NCBI GenBank assembly: GCA_029252045.1
Contig: JAQXCD010000059.1
Span: 1-64,000 of the forward strand
DNA length: 64,000 bases
Reading direction: 5' to 3'
DNA from: Sulfitobacter sp.
Lineage (GTDB): Bacteria > Pseudomonadota > Alphaproteobacteria > Rhodobacterales > Rhodobacteraceae
Shown here piece after piece: positions 6,886 through 43,519 of the stretch. The translations under genes and the position numbers were made by a program. The first letter of the stretch is position 1. Each line of letters begins with the position of its first letter. Under the pieces are notes generated by a model that saw only the letters and a program-made list of their open reading frames with translations, ran no database searches and was not told the origin of the DNA.

Positions 6886-7979
6886 CCGACGCTAAGCGCA
6901 TTGTTATCAAGATCGGTTCTGCCTTGCTGGTGGACCGTGCCACAGGCCGTTTGCGCGAAGACTGGCTTGCGTCACTTGCGCAAGATGTTGTCTGGCTGAA
7001 GCAGGCAGGCGCTGATGTTGTGTTGGTCTCGTCCGGCTCGATCGCGCTGGGGCGCGGGGTGCTGGGCCTTGGCCTTGGCACGCTGGCGTTGGAGCAATCG
7101 CAGGCTGCCGCAGCTGTGGGGCAGATCCGTCTCGCGCGCGCCTATGAAGAGGTGCTCGCACCGCACGGAATCACCACTGCGCAGGTGCTTGTGACGCTGG
7201 AAGACAGCGCAAACCGCCGCCGCTATCTCAACAGCCGCGCCACGATGGAGACCTTGTTGGGCCTTGGCGCTGTGCCGATTGTGAACGAGAATGACACGGT
7301 TGCCACGGATGAAATCCGCTTTGGCGACAATGACCGCCTTGCCGCGCAGATTGCCGTAACGGTGGGCGCAGACCAGTTGATCCTGTTGTCTGATGTTGAT
7401 GGATTTTACAGCGCGAACCCGTCTGAAGACCCAACTGCCACGCGGTTTGACGTGGTGGACCGGATCACCCCGCAAATTGAAGCGATGGCCGGCGATGCGG
7501 GCTCGGGCCTCAGCAAAGGCGGGATGAAGACCAAGCTGATGGCGGCGAAAACGGCTGTATCAGCCGGTTGTGCGATGGCGATCACCGAAGGGTTTGTGAT
7601 GCGCCCGCTGACTGCCCTAGCAAATGGCGCAAATGCCACTTGGTTCACCGCCCAGACTGACCCCCAAGCTGCGCGCAAAAGCTGGATTGCAGCGATGAAA
7701 CCACTGGGCACCGTTACACTGGATGCAGGGGCCGTTGCGGCCCTCGGGCGCGGCAAAAGCCTGCTGCCCGCGGGGATAACAGCCGTTGCCGGCAGTTTCG
7801 AGCGCGGTGATGCCGTGTCGCTGGTGGGGCCGGACGGGGCGGGCATCGGATCCGGCCTTGCACGCTATTCGGCTACGGAGGCGTCCCTGATCAAGGGCCA
7901 CCAGAGCGCCGAGATCGAGGCCTTGTTGGGCTATCCCGGGCGTGCGGCGCTGATCCACCGTGATGATATGGCCCTGTGA
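6873..7979 (+). CDS. proB: Glutamate 5-kinase
   Basis: A 368-residue enzyme that phosphorylates glutamate in the first step of proline synthesis. The N-terminal amino-acid kinase domain shows [32 protein letters not shown] and the FGDND motif. A C-terminal PUA domain (from about residue 280) completes the usual two-domain form. The TTG start at 6873 is supported by GAGGAGG about 9 bases upstream and by homology; it lies inside obgE. proA follows 10 bases later, giving both committed proline enzymes from one message. Confidence 0.95.
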
Positions 7980-7989
7980 GGAGTAAGGA

Positions 7990-9255
7990 ATGACACAAGA
8001 TACAGATATTTCCGCCCTGATGGCCGACATCGGCGCGCGTGCCAAAGCGGCTGCTGCGGTGCTGGCCACTGCCACGGCTGAACGAAAACATGCCGCGTTG
8101 ATCTCCGCTGCGGATGCTGTCTGGGCGGGGCGCGCGCAAATTTTCGCGGCAAACGATCAGGACATGGCGTACGGCGCCGACAAGGGACTGACGCCTGCGA
8201 TGCTGGACCGGCTCAAGCTGGACGAAGACCGCCTGCGCGGCATCGTCGACGGTTTGCGCGCCATTGCAGCGCAGCCCGATCCTGTAGGCGAGGTGCTGGC
8301 GGAGTGGGATCAGCCCAGCGGGCTGCACATTGCGCGTGTGCGCACACCGCTGGGTGTGATTGGTGTGATCTACGAATCCCGCCCGAATGTGACAGCCGAC
8401 GCAGGGGCGCTGTGCCTGAAGGCCGGCAATGCCGTGATCTTGCGCGGTGGCTCGGAGAGTTTTCACAGCAGCCGCGCGCTGCATGCCTGCTTGCAGCAGG
8501 GTTTGCGGGATGCAAACCTGCCCGAAGACGCGATCCAGTTGGTGCCGACCCGCGACCGTGCTGCGGTGCAGGCGATGTTGACCATGACCGATAAGATTGA
8601 TGTGATTGTGCCGCGCGGCGGCAAGGGCCTTGTTGGGCTGGTGCAGCGCGAGGCACGGGTGCCGGTGTTTGCCCATCTTGAGGGCATTGTGCACATCTAT
8701 ATCGACAAGGATGCCGACCCTGAAAAGGTGCTGCGCGTGGTGTTGAACGCTAAAACCCGGCGCACGGGTGTTTGTGGTGCAGCGGAGTGTTTGCTGATCC
8801 ACAAGGACATTGCCAAGACCATTGGTCGCGGTGTGATTAGTGCGTTGATCGATGCAGGCGTGGAAGTGCGTGGCGATGGTGGTTTGCAATCCATCACGGG
8901 CGTTGTTCCGGCTTCGCAAGACGATTGGGGGCATGAGTATCTGGATATGATTATCGCTGCCCGCGAGGTCGACAGCCTTGAGGACGCGATGGCGCATATC
9001 CGGCGCTATGGCTCAAACCACACCGACTGCATCCTGACAGAAGATTCAGCAGCAGCCGAGCTGTTTATGAATACGCTCGACAGTGCAATTGTGATGCACA
9101 ATGCCTCGACCCAGTTTGCCGATGGCGGGGAGTTCGGCATGGGCGCCGAGATCGGGATTGCGACGGGCAAGATGCATGCGCGCGGGCCAGTGGGTGCTGC
9201 CCAGCTGACCAGTTTCAAATACAAGGTCACAGGTGACGGGGCCGTGCGAGGCTAG
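7990..9255 (+). CDS. proA: Gamma-glutamyl phosphate reductase
   Basis: A 421-residue NADPH-dependent enzyme of the aldehyde dehydrogenase superfamily. It reduces glutamyl 5-phosphate to glutamate semialdehyde. Recognisable parts are [30 protein letters not shown], the catalytic-cysteine region [14 protein letters not shown] and the C-terminal [25 protein letters not shown] precedes the ATG. It is translationally close to proB. The gene ends with a genuine TAG stop, relevant to the in-frame TAG codons elsewhere in the window. Its 3' end converges on chpT. Confidence 0.96.
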
Positions 9256-9340
9256 AACCTTATGGTAACGGGGGGCGTGGTGTCCACAACCAGCTGGCCC
9301 CCTCATCCCGCGCAATCACTGGCAGCAGGCCGAATTGAAC

Positions 9341-9841
9341 CTATGCGGGGCGGAGATCACCTGTGGGCGTCCCGGCGGCAAGTGGCAGCCAGAGTGTTTC
9401 GTCGAAGTTGTATTTATCCGCATGGCCGACAAGCGTGATCTGCCCTTCGTCCTCGGACACCTCAATCCGGCCACCGTAGGGCATGGCCGTTTCCATACAC
9501 ATCAGGGCCAGAAACGTCAGACGTACAAGGTGTCGCGGTTGCCCTTCCAGCGGGGTCCATGACACAGTCAGGCGTGAGGGGCCGTAGATGTCGGCAAGGA
9601 TCGCAGTGATTTCGGGGCGGCCGACAACCTGATCGCTGGCGGCCCCAAAGGCGATACGGAAAAACCGGATGCGCGCGCTGGCGTTTGTTACACTCTCCGA
9701 GATCAGGGCCATTTCAGGGCTGATCGACGGGCGGCTCATCTCGATCAGTTCCAGACCGTTGTTGATGGCACCGATTGGCGATATCAGGTCATGAAAGATG
9801 CGGCTGCCGATCAGCGCTGCGAAATCGGTTTCATGGCCCAT
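9341..9841 (-). CDS. chpT: Histidine phosphotransferase ChpT, C-terminally cut by an in-frame TAG
   Basis: ChpT carries phosphate from the hybrid kinase CckA to CtrA and CpdR in alphaproteobacterial cell-cycle or motility control. The 166 residues show the HPt-like helix with the phospho-accepting His in FHDLISPIGAINNGLE (His17) and a degenerate ATPase-like C-terminal domain. The TAG at 9343-9341 interrupts the protein just after TPTGDLRPA. The same frame continues for 26 residues, beginning VQFGLLPVIARDEGASWLW, to a TAA at 9262-9260. That tail looks like a natural end and would give a protein of about 193 residues. A single C-to-T change (CAG to TAG) would explain it. Confidence 0.85.
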   Translation of the reverse strand: MGHETDFAALIGSRIFHDLISPIGAINNGLELIEMSRPSISPEMALISESVTNASARIRFFRIAFGAASDQVVGRPEITAILADIYGPSRLTVSWTPLEGQPRHLVRLTFLALMCMETAMPYGGRIEVSEDEGQITLVGHADKYNFDETLWLPLAAGTPTGDLRPA

Positions 9842-9875
9842 TTACAGTGGCCTCCTTACAGGTGAGGGACAGGGT

Positions 9876-10061
9876 ATGAACGACATGAATGCAATCCTGA
9901 CGCCCGGTATGCTGGTGCGGCATCCGGGCATGCCCGATTGGGGGGTGGGGCAGGTACAAAGCAACATTGGCGGCAAACTCACTGTCAATTTCAGGGAGGC
10001 AGGCAAGATCGTGATTGATAGCTCACGCGTTGCATTACATCCGGTTTTTGATGACCAGTAA
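9876..10061 (+). CDS. DUF3553 domain small protein
   Basis: A 61-residue protein whose core LVRHPGMPDWGVGQVQSNIG followed by KLTVNFREAGK and VAL matches the DUF3553 family. These small SH3-like barrels resemble the CarD/UvrD C-terminal interaction module. The ATG at 9876 is preceded by GGGACAGGGT. It is transcribed divergently from chpT with only about 35 bases between them, so both promoters must overlap. Function is unknown; by fold it may contact RNA polymerase or a helicase, which is an inference from the family only. Confidence 0.8.
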   Translation: MNDMNAILTPGMLVRHPGMPDWGVGQVQSNIGGKLTVNFREAGKIVIDSSRVALHPVFDDQ

Positions 10062-10198
10062 TTCCAGACCATTGTTAACAAATGGTAACTATTTTACTCT
10101 GGCGGAGGAAATATCAATCACAGGTTGTATTGCGATATGCCCGCCCGCGTTGCCAATTTGCACCGGAGCGCTTAACTGCGGCGCAACCTCAGGGCGGG

Positions 10199-10963
10199 AT
10201 GCAGGTGAGCAACGTGAATAGACCGGATTTCAGAGTTAAACTGGCTGATACACCGGACGAGCTCCGAGCAGCGCAGCGCCTGCGCTATGAAGTGTTTGTG
10301 CGTGAATTGGGCGGTGGCGGCGATCTGGTAGACCACGACGCGGGACTGGAATGCGACCGTTTTGATCCGTATTTTGACCATATGATCCTGACCGAGCAGG
10401 GCAGGGATGCCGTGATCGGCGTCTACCGTCTGTTGCGGAGCGACCGCGCTGATGCCGCAGGCGGGTTCTACTCCGAAAGGGAGTATGATCTGACCCCGCT
10501 CAAGGCGTCGGGGCGGCGGTTGCTGGAGCTGGGGCGCTCCTGCGTACACCCCGATTATCGGGGCGGGATGGCGATGCACAGTCTCTGGCAGGGGTTGGCG
10601 GCTTATGTTGCACGGCACAGGATCGAGGTGCTGTTTGGTGTGGCCAGCTTCCATGGCACCGATGTGGGTGCGATTGCAGCTCCCTTGTCGCTGCTACATC
10701 ATCGCCATCTGGCGCCATCAGAGCTGCGGGTGCGTGCGCGGGAATTCCAGCCGATGGATTTGCTTCTGCCCGACGGCATCGACAAGGCGGCTGCGATGGT
10801 AAAGGTTCCCAGTTTGATCAAAGCCTATCTGCGGCTTGGCGGTTATGTGGGCGAGGGGGCCTATGTTGATCACGCGTTTAATACCACGGATGTTTGCCTG
10901 ATTATGGATACGGCCAAGCTGAACGCGAGGCAGGCCAGAATGTACAAAGGGGACCGCGGGTGA
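10199..10963 (+). CDS. olsB: L-ornithine N(alpha)-acyltransferase (lyso-ornithine lipid synthase)
   Basis: About 254 residues of the OlsB/PlsC-associated GNAT-like family. This enzyme transfers a 3-hydroxyacyl chain from acyl carrier protein to ornithine, the first step of phosphate-free ornithine lipid synthesis. Motifs seen are AQRLRYEVFVRELG, FDPYFDHMIL, LELGRSCVHPDYRGG and IEVLFGVASFHGTD. The frame is open upstream to 10082, but homology begins near NRPDFRVKLADT, so the ATG at 10199 is chosen with moderate certainty. The stop overlaps the GTG start of olsA. Ornithine lipids often replace phospholipids under phosphate limitation. Confidence 0.9.
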   Translation: MQVSNVNRPDFRVKLADTPDELRAAQRLRYEVFVRELGGGGDLVDHDAGLECDRFDPYFDHMILTEQGRDAVIGVYRLLRSDRADAAGGFYSEREYDLTPLKASGRRLLELGRSCVHPDYRGGMAMHSLWQGLAAYVARHRIEVLFGVASFHGTDVGAIAAPLSLLHHRHLAPSELRVRAREFQPMDLLLPDGIDKAAAMVKVPSLIKAYLRLGGYVGEGAYVDHAFNTTDVCLIMDTAKLNARQARMYKGDRG

Positions 10964-11793
10964 GTGCAAGATGGGAGAACGGCGTGCATCCGGACATGCC
11001 ATTCTTGGGCGCGCTTGGCTGGTTGCGCGTGGCGTTGCGGGCGTTGGTGCTGGCGGTGCTGGTGTTTGGCGGGCTGGTTGTCTTGCTGCTCTGCCGTCTG
11101 CTCGAGCGTCCGTTGTGCGGTATGAACAGGCCCGTCACGCCCTATATCACCCAGTCTGTCTGCCGGAACGCCTTGCGCATTATGGGCATGGGGCTGCGGA
11201 TGCAGGGCGCGCCGATGCAGGCGCGGGGCGCTGTGGTGGCTAACCATACCAGCTGGCTGGATATCTTCGCGCTGAACGCCGCCAAGCGGATCTATTTTGT
11301 GTCAAAGTCCGAGGTTGCCGGCTGGCCCGGAATAGGCTGGCTGGCCCGCGCCACCGGCACCGTCTTTATCGAGCGTAATCCGGCCCGCGCGCGCGAGCAG
11401 ACAGAACTGTTCCAGATGCGCCTGTTGGCGGGCCACAAGCTGCTGTTTTTTCCTGAGGGGACCAGTACGGACGGGCTTCAGGTGCTGCCGTTTAAAACCA
11501 CGCTGTTTCAGGCCTTCTTTGCGTCTGAGTTGCGTGACCAGATTTATGTGCAGCCTGTTGCAGTGATCTATCACGCGCCTTTAGGACTGGATGCGCGCTA
11601 TTACGGGTGGTGGGGCAGTATGGAGTTTGGCACGCACCTGCTGGCTACGCTTGCACCAGTGCGCGCAGGATCGGTTGAGGTGATCTACTGCACGCCGCTG
11701 AAAGTTGCTGATTTTGCGGACCGCAAGGCGCTTGCTGCGGCGGCGGAGACAGCACTGCGTCAGGCGCATGGGACGACATTGACCGCCACCTAG
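10960..11793 (+). CDS. olsA: Lyso-ornithine lipid O-acyltransferase
   Basis: A 277-residue PlsC-type 1-acyl-glycerol-phosphate acyltransferase homolog. It has an N-terminal hydrophobic anchor (ALRALVLAVLVFGGLVVLLL), the catalytic box NHTSWLD, the substrate motif FIERNPARAREQ and the FPEGTSTDG block. Paired with olsB it should add the second acyl chain to form ornithine lipid at the inner membrane. The GTG at 10960 overlaps the olsB stop as GTGA, supporting that start over the longer frame from 10894. It ends with TAG. No Pho box was noticed upstream of the pair. Confidence 0.9.
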   Translation: MSARWENGVHPDMPFLGALGWLRVALRALVLAVLVFGGLVVLLLCRLLERPLCGMNRPVTPYITQSVCRNALRIMGMGLRMQGAPMQARGAVVANHTSWLDIFALNAAKRIYFVSKSEVAGWPGIGWLARATGTVFIERNPARAREQTELFQMRLLAGHKLLFFPEGTSTDGLQVLPFKTTLFQAFFASELRDQIYVQPVAVIYHAPLGLDARYYGWWGSMEFGTHLLATLAPVRAGSVEVIYCTPLKVADFADRKALAAAAETALRQAHGTTLTAT

Positions 11794-11813
11794 CATTGTG
11801 ATGCCATTTGCAC

Positions 11814-11842
11814 TTGCAGAATATATTGCTGTGGGGTATGCG
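11814..11842 (+). promoter_or_regulatory. Candidate promoter for rpsB-tsf
   Basis: TTGCAG (11814-11819), a 17-base spacer and TATGCG (11837-11842) lie about 125 bases before rpsB. TTGC-type -35 boxes are common in strong alphaproteobacterial promoters. Confidence 0.4.
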
Positions 11843-11848
11843 CGCCCT

Positions 11849-11968
11849 ACTAAATCCCGCAATCGGGGATTGGGACAGGTCAGGGAGAAATCCTGACAGG
11901 TTCCGCCGGTTGGCCTGCATCCCGTAGGTCAGACCCCCGATGAGGTTAAACCGGAAAGGTATAAAGAC
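11849..11968 (+). promoter_or_regulatory. Structured 5' leader of rpsB
   Basis: Two hairpins occur in the untranslated leader. AATCCC / GGGATT has a 7-base loop (11853-11871), and GTCAGG / CCTGAC has a 7-base loop (11879-11897). S2 is known to control its own operon in other bacteria through its leader, so this may be a protein-binding site. It does not match a structure I can name. Confidence 0.35.
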
Positions 11969-12742
11969 ATGGCTCTTCCTGAGTTCTCCATGCGCCAATT
12001 GCTTGAAGCAGGCGTACACTTTGGTCACCAGACACAGCGCTGGAACCCACGCATGGGCCCGTACATCTACGGCGCGCGTAACGGCATCCACATCATGGAC
12101 CTGACACAGACTGTCCCCATGCTGGAAGACGCTCTGAAAATTATCCGTGATACAGTCGCCAAGGGCGGCAGCATCCTATTTGTTGGCACCAAGCGTCAGG
12201 CTGCACAGCCGATTGCGGACGCCGCAGAGAAATGTGCACAGTATTACATGAACCACCGCTGGCTGGGTGGCACGCTGACCAACTGGCAGACCGTGTCCAA
12301 GTCCATCCAGCGCCTCAAGCACATCGACGAGCAGTCCGAAATCGGCTTCTCCGGTATGACCAAGAAAGAGCGTCTGGGCATGGAACGTGACCAGGCGAAG
12401 CTGCAGGCTTCCTTGGGTGGTATCCGCGAAATGGGCGGCCGTCCCGACCTGATCTTTGTCATCGACGTACGCAAAGAGCAGCTGGCGATTGCAGAAGCAA
12501 ACAAGCTGGGTATTCCGGTTGTGGCCGTGGTTGACACCAACTGCTCGCCAGACGGCATCGACTATATCATTCCGGGTAACGATGACGCGGCACGCGCCAT
12601 CGCTTTGTACACCGATCTGGCTGCACGCGCGGCACTTGACGGTATGTCCGCACAGCTGGGCGCCGCCGGCGTTGATCTGGGCGCGATGGAAGAAGCACCG
12701 ATGGAAGAAGCGCTTGCTGAAGAAGCACCTGCGGCAAGCTAA
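11969..12742 (+). CDS. rpsB: 30S ribosomal protein S2
   Basis: A 257-residue protein of normal length starting [20 protein letters not shown], with the conserved [20 protein letters not shown] and [14 protein letters not shown] blocks. S2 binds late to the 30S subunit. The C-terminal 25 residues are Glu/Ala rich and variable, as usual. GGAAAGGTATAAAGAC precedes the ATG. It leads the conserved rpsB-tsf operon; a strong hairpin lies between the two genes. Confidence 0.97.
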
Positions 12743-41896: not shown

Positions 41897-43519
41897 TTAG
41901 CGGCCTTTGAAGAGCCCGCCCAGAATGCCGCGCACGATGCGGCGGCCTGTGGTACCCTTGAGTTCCTTGATCACAACGTTGGCTATGGCGCCGCCGATCC
42001 CGCCAGTGTCTTGGGTGCTGCGGCTGGAGGTTGTGCGGCGGGTCGGGGTGCTATCCTTGCCTGCGTAGCGGCGGGCGTTTTTGAAGTCGCGCAGCGACGG
42101 TGTTTCAGCGGCGGCTGTTTTGGCAGCTTTTGCCTCTTCCTCCGCTTTGGCGATTGCGGCTTCTGCTGCTTCGGCTTCGGCGGCGGCTGTTACGGCCCTG
42201 CCCCGCAGGATTTCAAATGCGCTTTCACGGTCGAGTGGCGTGTCGTATTTTCCCGCCATCTCTGACAGGGCCATAAGGGACCGGCGCTGTGCGTCTGTGA
42301 TGGGGCCCAGCTGCGAGGATGGCGGGCGGATCAGGGTCCGCTCGACAATGCCGGGCACGCCTTTGGGTTGCAGCATAGAGGTCACTGCTTCGCCCACGCC
42401 AACTTCGCGGATTGCTTCTTCTGTGCTGAAGGCGGGGTTGTCGCGATAGGTTTGGGCAGCCAGACGCAGCTCTTTCTGGTCCTTGGCGGTGAAGGCGCGC
42501 AGGGCGTGTTGCACGCGGTTGCCGAGCTGGCCGAGGATATCTTCGGGGACATCCGCAGGGTTCTGGGTGATGAAATAGATGCCCACGCCTTTGGAACGGA
42601 TCAGGCGCGCGACCTGTTCCACCTTGTCGACCAGTGCTTTGGGCGCGTCATCAAACAGCAAGTGGGCTTCGTCAAAGAAGAAGACCAGTTTGGGTTTGTC
42701 GGCATCACCAACTTCGGGGAGTTCTTCGAACAGTTCTGACAGGAGCCACAACAGGAACGTGGCATAAAGTTTGGGTGCGCCCATCAGTTGGTCAGACGCA
42801 AGAATATTGATCATGCCGCGGCCGTCGGCATCGGTGCGCATCAGGTCCGACAGCGCCAGTGCAGGTTCGCCGAACAGTTTGGTCCCGCCCTGGTTTTCCA
42901 GCACCAGAAGGCGGCGCTGGATGGCGCCCACGGATGCCGAGGACACGTTGCCATAGCGCAGGGACAGATCAGCCGCGTTTTCGCCGATCCAGACCAGCAG
43001 GGCCTGGAGGTCTTTGAGGTCCAGCATCGCCATGCCCTCTTCGTCAGCCACACGGAAGGCAATGTTGATGATGCCCTATTGGGCCTCGCTCAGGTCCAGC
43101 AGCTGCCCAAGCAGCAGCGGTCCCATTTCGGAGACGGTTGTGCGCACAGGGTGGCCTTGTTCCCCGAACAAATCCCAAAAAGTGACGGGGAAGGCTTCAT
43201 ATTTGAAGTCCGCAAAGCCGATTTTTTTCGCGCGTTCGGTAAAGGGCGCGTGAAGTTTGTGGTTGGGGTCGCCCGCCATGGCAAGGCCGCTCAAATCGCC
43301 TTTGACGTCTGACAGGAACACCGGCACGCCCACATTGGCGAAACCTTCGGCCATGATCTGGAGGGTGACTATCTTACCAGTACCAGTTGCGCCGGCCACG
43401 AGCCCGTGCCGATTGGCATATTTCAGCGACAAATACTGTTGCGTGCCATAGTCTGGCACGCCGCCACCGATAAAAAGATCCGTACTCACAATCACATTCT
43501 CCTCAAAGCTGATGTGCAA
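41897..43519 (-). pseudogene. HerA-like DUF853 ATPase, interrupted by in-frame TAG
   Basis: Two same-frame pieces form one ~540-residue protein of the HerA/DUF853 (helicase HerA-like C-terminal) family. The first piece (43519-43076) has FIGGGVPDYGTQQYLSLKYA and the Walker A region VAGATGTGKIVTLQIMAEGF. A TAG at 43078-43076 follows LLDLSEAQ. The frame then continues [20 protein letters not shown] into the ATPase body with Walker [18 protein letters not shown]. The Walker A Thr after Lys is Ile (codon ATA), a second damaging change consistent with decay. An Ala/Glu-rich coiled segment precedes the C-terminus. No HerA partner nuclease (NurA) is nearby. Confidence 0.85.

Follow-up and report, generated by a model that had tools for sequence, protein, structure and literature searches.

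Does chpT still encode a working phosphotransferase in the Sulfitobacter genome studied here? In the window, by which we mean the whole 64,000-nucleotide stretch analysed, the gene is read on the minus strand from an ATG at 9841 to a TAG at 9343-9341, giving 166 residues of which the last are GDLRPA; the same frame then goes on for 26 codons, VQFGLLPVIARDEGASWLWTPRPPLP, to a TAA at 9262-9260. The initial annotation had described both the amber codon and the 26 in-frame residues behind it, and both are seen in the sequence; the TAG is genuine in the assembly. Our reading is that chpT has probably been inactivated, genuinely and recently, as an ordinary pseudogene, and that this is part of a decay of the CckA-ChpT arm in which CtrA was kept. 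What is observed is that the lesions stand in this assembly and are absent from the relatives compared with it.

The chpT frame and the sequence behind the stop

The 166-residue protein matches the Pfam family HPTransfase (PF10090) over profile positions 2-96 of 123, and phmmer aligns it with the solved ChpT chains 4qpj, 4fmt and 4fpp. The HDLISP box is kept in full (H17, D18, L19, I20, S21 and P22). A second copy of ChpT elsewhere in the genome was considered and rejected, since a search of the genome gave a single match.

The tail behind the stop is of two kinds. A profile was built from the last 31 residues of the relatives' ChpT and searched against all six-frame fragments of the window of at least 8 residues; the fragment at 9340-9263 was its top match (E 9.4e-7, with the runner-up at 0.53), and the match is confined to the first 14 of the 26 residues, the last 12 being out of frame relative to the relatives' ChpT. 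The tail is therefore protein-like, as had been proposed, for its first 14 residues only, and the earlier description overlooked a second lesion, the change of frame in a G run. For the same reason the suggested total of about 193 residues is not the C-terminus of the family: the frame changes after 14 codons, and ChpT is 195-203 residues long in all 109 relatives' loci.

The two lesions, the TAG and the frame change, lie 39 bases apart. To judge from sequence, the original end of chpT is likely still recognisable in the other frame, at the TAG at 9254-9252, since that codon interlocks with the proA stop at 9253-9255 (CTAG, 9252-9255) as happens in relatives, where interlocked stops were found in 26 of the 106 loci that have proA in convergent orientation (in another three, proA was not seen). 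The 15 residues of the likely former C-terminus were not picked up by the tail profile on their own. The features of the region are collected in Table 1.

Table 1. Features of the chpT-proA region, in window coordinates
Feature	Position	Strand	Basis
chpT as now read, 166 aa, TAG end	9341..9841	-	Pfam HPTransfase PF10090; phmmer to ChpT chains
His17 codon, likely phospho-accepting	9791..9793	-	HDLISP box; role suggested by Caulobacter ChpT His33 (extract of PMC3433190)
In-frame TAG, codon 167	9341..9343	-	stop at this site in 0/109 relatives' loci
ChpT C-terminal helix segment VQFGLLPVIARDEG	9299..9340	-	in frame behind TAG; tail profile E 9.4e-7
Five-G run where the relatives-like frame changes, second lesion	9298..9302	-	frameshift-aware alignment to two relatives; sequence
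Out-of-frame tail end, ASWLWTPRPPLP + TAA	9260..9298	-	not ChpT-like
Likely former C-terminal strands of ChpT, 15 residues, other frame	9255..9299	-	sequence; frameshift-aware alignment
TAG, likely former chpT stop	9252..9254	-	interlocked (CTAG) with proA stop, as in 26/106 relatives' loci
proA, intact convergent neighbour	7990..9255	+	no deviation at 222 sites at least 95% conserved

chpT in relatives

The relatives' set comprises 109 chpT loci, 29 from genomes and 80 from contigs (some genomes are in both sets), which reduce to 98 distinct ChpT sequences once duplicates and one relative with an X in its ChpT are dropped. The names of the closest loci indicate that the host is Sulfitobacter-like and belongs to the Roseobacter group. 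The claim that the TAG truncates ChpT is upheld by this set: the frame is open past the site in 109 of 109 loci, none of these homologues ends there (0 of 109), and every one carries VQF or VHF within its last 60 residues. The residue at the site of the stop is Q in 45 of the distinct sequences, H in 25, L in 19 and another residue in 9, so that the CAG-to-TAG change put forward earlier is a plausible substitution, Q being present in 45 of 98 distinct relatives and other residues in the rest. As marks of a pseudogene we take a disabling change absent from the orthologues, here a stop shared by 0 of 109 loci, and further decay, here the frame change at 9302-9298.

Ahead of the stop no relaxed constraint was seen in the 166 residues, which deviate at one of the sites at least 98% conserved; 15 of the 98 relatives match or exceed that count, and 39 of 98 do so at the 95% level. 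The residue preceding His17 is Phe, as against Cys in 99% of the 98 relatives. One unusual residue in 166 suggests that decay of chpT is either recent or absent.

A ChpT match was found in 34 of 35 genomes of the genus. No match came from G005, of the same GTDB genus and with a listed completeness of 99%, and in G002, also of that genus, the chpT reading (L245, about 1702-2294) passes from one frame to another near residue 97; these are other possible losses of ChpT, in which an error may instead be responsible. Among plasmid records there were short, distant matches in five (four from Sinorhizobium and one from Shinella) and nothing closer.

The rest of the relay, the gene transfer agent and the flagellum

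The kinase gene upstream in the relay is damaged as well. cckA (L214, on contig C45 of this genome, G000), identified as the best match to the CckA family, whose cut-off was passed by 0 of 5 genomes, is interrupted in its N-terminal half by a TAG at a position that is Trp in three relatives; near its C-terminus it shifts frame within a run of A, immediately ahead of the end of the receiver domain (...PNSVFLPKPF...). ctrA is intact and scores 423 bits, as in four relatives. A response-regulator-like gene on contig C53 (L233) carries one in-frame TAG and is about 57% identical to an intact gene of G016. The cckA, gene transfer agent (GTA) and C53 genes were deliberate look-ups or were encountered in targeted searches, and they form no unbiased sample.

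The GTA cluster is present on contig C25 (L239, about 7553-12401; also L240 and contig C40) with a 7.86-kb deletion inside the contig, which fuses the capsid gene, cut after the first 318 of its 389 residues, to the part of a tail gene that begins at residue 825 of 1311. A TAG also interrupts the capsid gene, and the terminase gene shows both a TAA at codon 4 and a change of frame. C25 and C40 have an exact 119-bp end in common, so that the GTA remnant looks continuous. GTA_TIM was not found in this genome and is present in four of four relatives. The deletion within the contig is no base-calling error.

For the flagellum, the 30-kb cluster of the relatives has no DNA match in this assembly, and the flagellar rod family gives one weak match here as against 4-5 in each of four relatives. 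Contig C12 (L230, 1-650) begins within flgD, behind 122 bases of other sequence that on the other strand read MTKRKNHSPDFKAKVAL and that we take to be IS3-like, and contig C62 (L231, 1-110) ends within a motB-like gene. With a contig ending at each flank and an assembly that is 90% complete, the cluster may simply have failed to assemble, and its absence is weaker evidence than the damage described above. A second flagellar system on the 11.3-kb contig C23 was considered and rejected, as there is one lone hook/rod-like ORF and no cluster visible; that ORF and the transposase-like one adjoining it were named by eye, and presumably these names fit. On the preferred reading the GTA has decayed, and the flagellum probably has too.

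Decay or sequence error

The main rival explanation is that base-calling or consensus error produced both the TAG and the shift in the G run, the true chpT being intact, which we regard as unlikely. It was addressed by scanning 344 kb of this genome's DNA (the window, 260 kb of contig C20 and 20 kb more of C59) against the syntenic proteins of two relatives, with the two relatives compared with each other as controls. Raw frameshift candidates numbered 10 and 7 here, some of them doubled or spurious, as against 1 and 0 in the controls; this excess can be counted for decay but, being found across the sampled DNA, also for error. Raw in-frame stop candidates showed no excess (12 and 11, as against 17 and 13 in the controls), and many of them seem to belong to spurious ORFs or to sequence upstream of a true start. 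Genes matched were 256 and 280 in the 344 kb and, in the controls, 291 and 298 in 398 kb; the density of conserved genes is not below that of the controls, which argues against any broad decay.

Twelve lesions in eight genes were accepted by hand: the two in chpT, a TAG in a HerA-like gene, three stops in an extensin-like-domain gene, a TAA and a shift in a 154-aa gene, and one shift in each of four genes. Left out were stops in spurious-looking ORFs or upstream of a start, doubled or spurious frameshifts, and a TAA at codon 19 of a 465-aa gene (L160, 6473). The accepted lesions are concentrated in few genes, as would not be expected of error: were they placed at random by gene length, clustering of this degree would have P 1.1e-4 (6.6e-4 without chpT), values that serve as a guide only, the list having been made by hand and the controls not having had the same hand-check.

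Two of these genes deserve mention in their own right. The HerA-like gene (PF05872; window 43519-41897, minus strand) has its single in-frame TAG at 43078-43076, where two relatives have Glu; it carries Ile for Thr in the GATGTGKT motif and is otherwise 88-90% identical over 535 alignment columns. The extensin-like-domain gene (PF06904 in a relative; L164, 10360-10837) has the in-frame stops TAG, TAG and TGA. The ABC-transporter family was tried as a genome-wide survey of stops and proved uninformative, the best matches, which were those listed, all being intact.

Other observations fall on both sides. The shifts in chpT and cckA sit in homopolymers, of G and of A respectively, the residues upstream of the chpT stop seem constrained, and the HerA-like gene with its lone TAG at 43078 has a frame that is otherwise intact, all as error would have it. 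But the adjoining proA is clean, and the exact 119-bp overlap of contigs suggests a de Bruijn graph assembly of short reads, in which homopolymer errors are rare. The functionally linked cckA and GTA genes are damaged too, the latter by the 7.86-kb deletion among other changes. Given this damage elsewhere in the genome, and given that the assembly lacks the flagellar cluster, real decay of chpT is likelier than error.

Could the shortened protein still work?

A second rival takes the TAG as real and supposes that the 166-residue ChpT keeps its phosphotransfer helices and still relays phosphate. The gene product has in common with the ChpT histidine phosphotransferase of known structure (PDB 4FMT/4FPP and 4QPJ) the sequence match, the His-box and the chpT-proA neighbourhood (seen in 106 relatives' loci), but differs from it in having a C-terminal domain that is short of its final 31 residues, in the frame lesion behind its stop and in being accompanied by a broken CckA. 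In a model of an intact relative's ChpT (mean pLDDT 85.9, pTM 0.84, from a shallow alignment of 13 sequences that limits it), whose top PDB matches are 4qpj, 4qpk, 4fmt and 4fpp, a helix spans 165-179 and strands span 185-189 and 192-196; both strands, and all of the helix except its first two residues, lie behind the stop point, so a complete C-terminal ATPase-like domain is absent from the protein of this genome. The truncated protein was itself modelled at pLDDT 68.7 and pTM 0.59, likewise limited by a shallow alignment (12 sequences).

A working short form would be helped by the retention of the His-box and the N-terminal helical part, and by the report for Caulobacter that ChpT is not autophosphorylated by ATP, which might make part of the domain dispensable; in the structure described there, the ATPase-like domain helices alpha3-alpha5 run along the phosphotransfer helices (both points from an extract of PMC3433190). 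But the lost helix carries V168 and F170, invariant in the 98 distinct relatives, the predicted fold is worse than that of the intact relative on both scores, and cckA, the gene for the upstream kinase, is broken too. We think it very improbable that the shortened ChpT is functional.

Readthrough

That a longer ChpT is made by amber readthrough or recoding is scarcely credible and finds no support in how TAG is used, in the change of frame or in the tRNAs typed: ChpT-like codons do go on behind the TAG, and in-frame TAGs also occur in the HerA-like gene, cckA, the GTA capsid gene and others, but the frame changes 14 codons further on, leaving no continuous frame to the family's end. Readthrough alone would thus not restore chpT, the full-length product that had been considered is not supported, and a readthrough protein would end in ASWLWTPRPPLP. 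Nor is TAG scarce as a terminator, ending 42 of 232 and 47 of 251 genes here in the two comparisons, similar to 47 of 263 and 46 of 276 in the control comparisons. No CTA anticodon appears among the 33 typed of 35 tRNA matches, a set that is incomplete, in that the assembly is 90% complete, two matches at contig ends are untyped and tRNAs for Trp, Tyr and Ile are likewise missing from the typed ones. The in-frame stops of broken genes are TAG in 7 of 9 cases (not counting the TAA at codon 19 of the 465-aa gene at L160 6473 or the terminase TAA at codon 4), which fits codon usage (expected 51-54%, P 0.10-0.13), and other broken genes show TGA, TAA and frameshifts.

Probable loss of the CckA-ChpT arm and what it may mean

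Under the preferred reading, genuine inactivation of chpT, a nonsense change after codon 166 and the nearby frame change would have cost the ATPase-like domain its last helix and its last two strands, and working ChpT would no longer be made. The loss would have taken place within a decay of the CckA-ChpT arm that includes the stop and frameshift in cckA, the partial deletion of the GTA genes and the missing flagellar cluster, and loss of motility and of the GTA may have removed the selection that kept the relay.

Published work, of which we cite extracts, is consistent with such a course. In Dinoroseobacter shibae, mutants of cckA, chpT and ctrA are given doubling times of 2.6-2.8 h as against 4.3 h for the wild type (PMC4046655), and relay mutants of Ruegeria sp. 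KLH11 are described as growing like the wild type (PMC3692519). Swimming of Phaeobacter inhibens requires cckA, chpT and ctrA, and its authors regard flagellar control as the core function of the relay in Rhodobacterales (PMC12363192). If cells can grow without the relay, and flagellar control is what it chiefly serves, a lineage that loses its flagella should cease to be under selection to keep cckA and chpT. The engineered mutants of these three species resemble the present case in that loss of the relay is viable; they differ in that the losses here are natural, spare ctrA while affecting cckA and chpT, and are accompanied by a damaged GTA and a missing flagellar cluster. Searches of open-access literature for roseobacter pseudogenes, or for natural loss of the relay, flagella or GTA, listed no title or abstract opening that describes the present case.

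A further step, which we offer tentatively and hold to be rather less than an even chance, is that this is a natural lineage with an orphaned CtrA, in which inactivation has reached CckA, ChpT, the flagellar cluster and the GTA, and an intact CtrA acts, unphosphorylated or through another kinase, on the genes that remain. The stop in chpT alone is an ordinary inactivating change. If confirmed, the lineage would be a natural experiment on the CckA-ChpT-CtrA relay, showing that its outputs, flagella and GTA, are lost along with it; it would also mean that CtrA can outlast its phosphate donors, and a selected role of unphosphorylated CtrA in Rhodobacterales would become testable.
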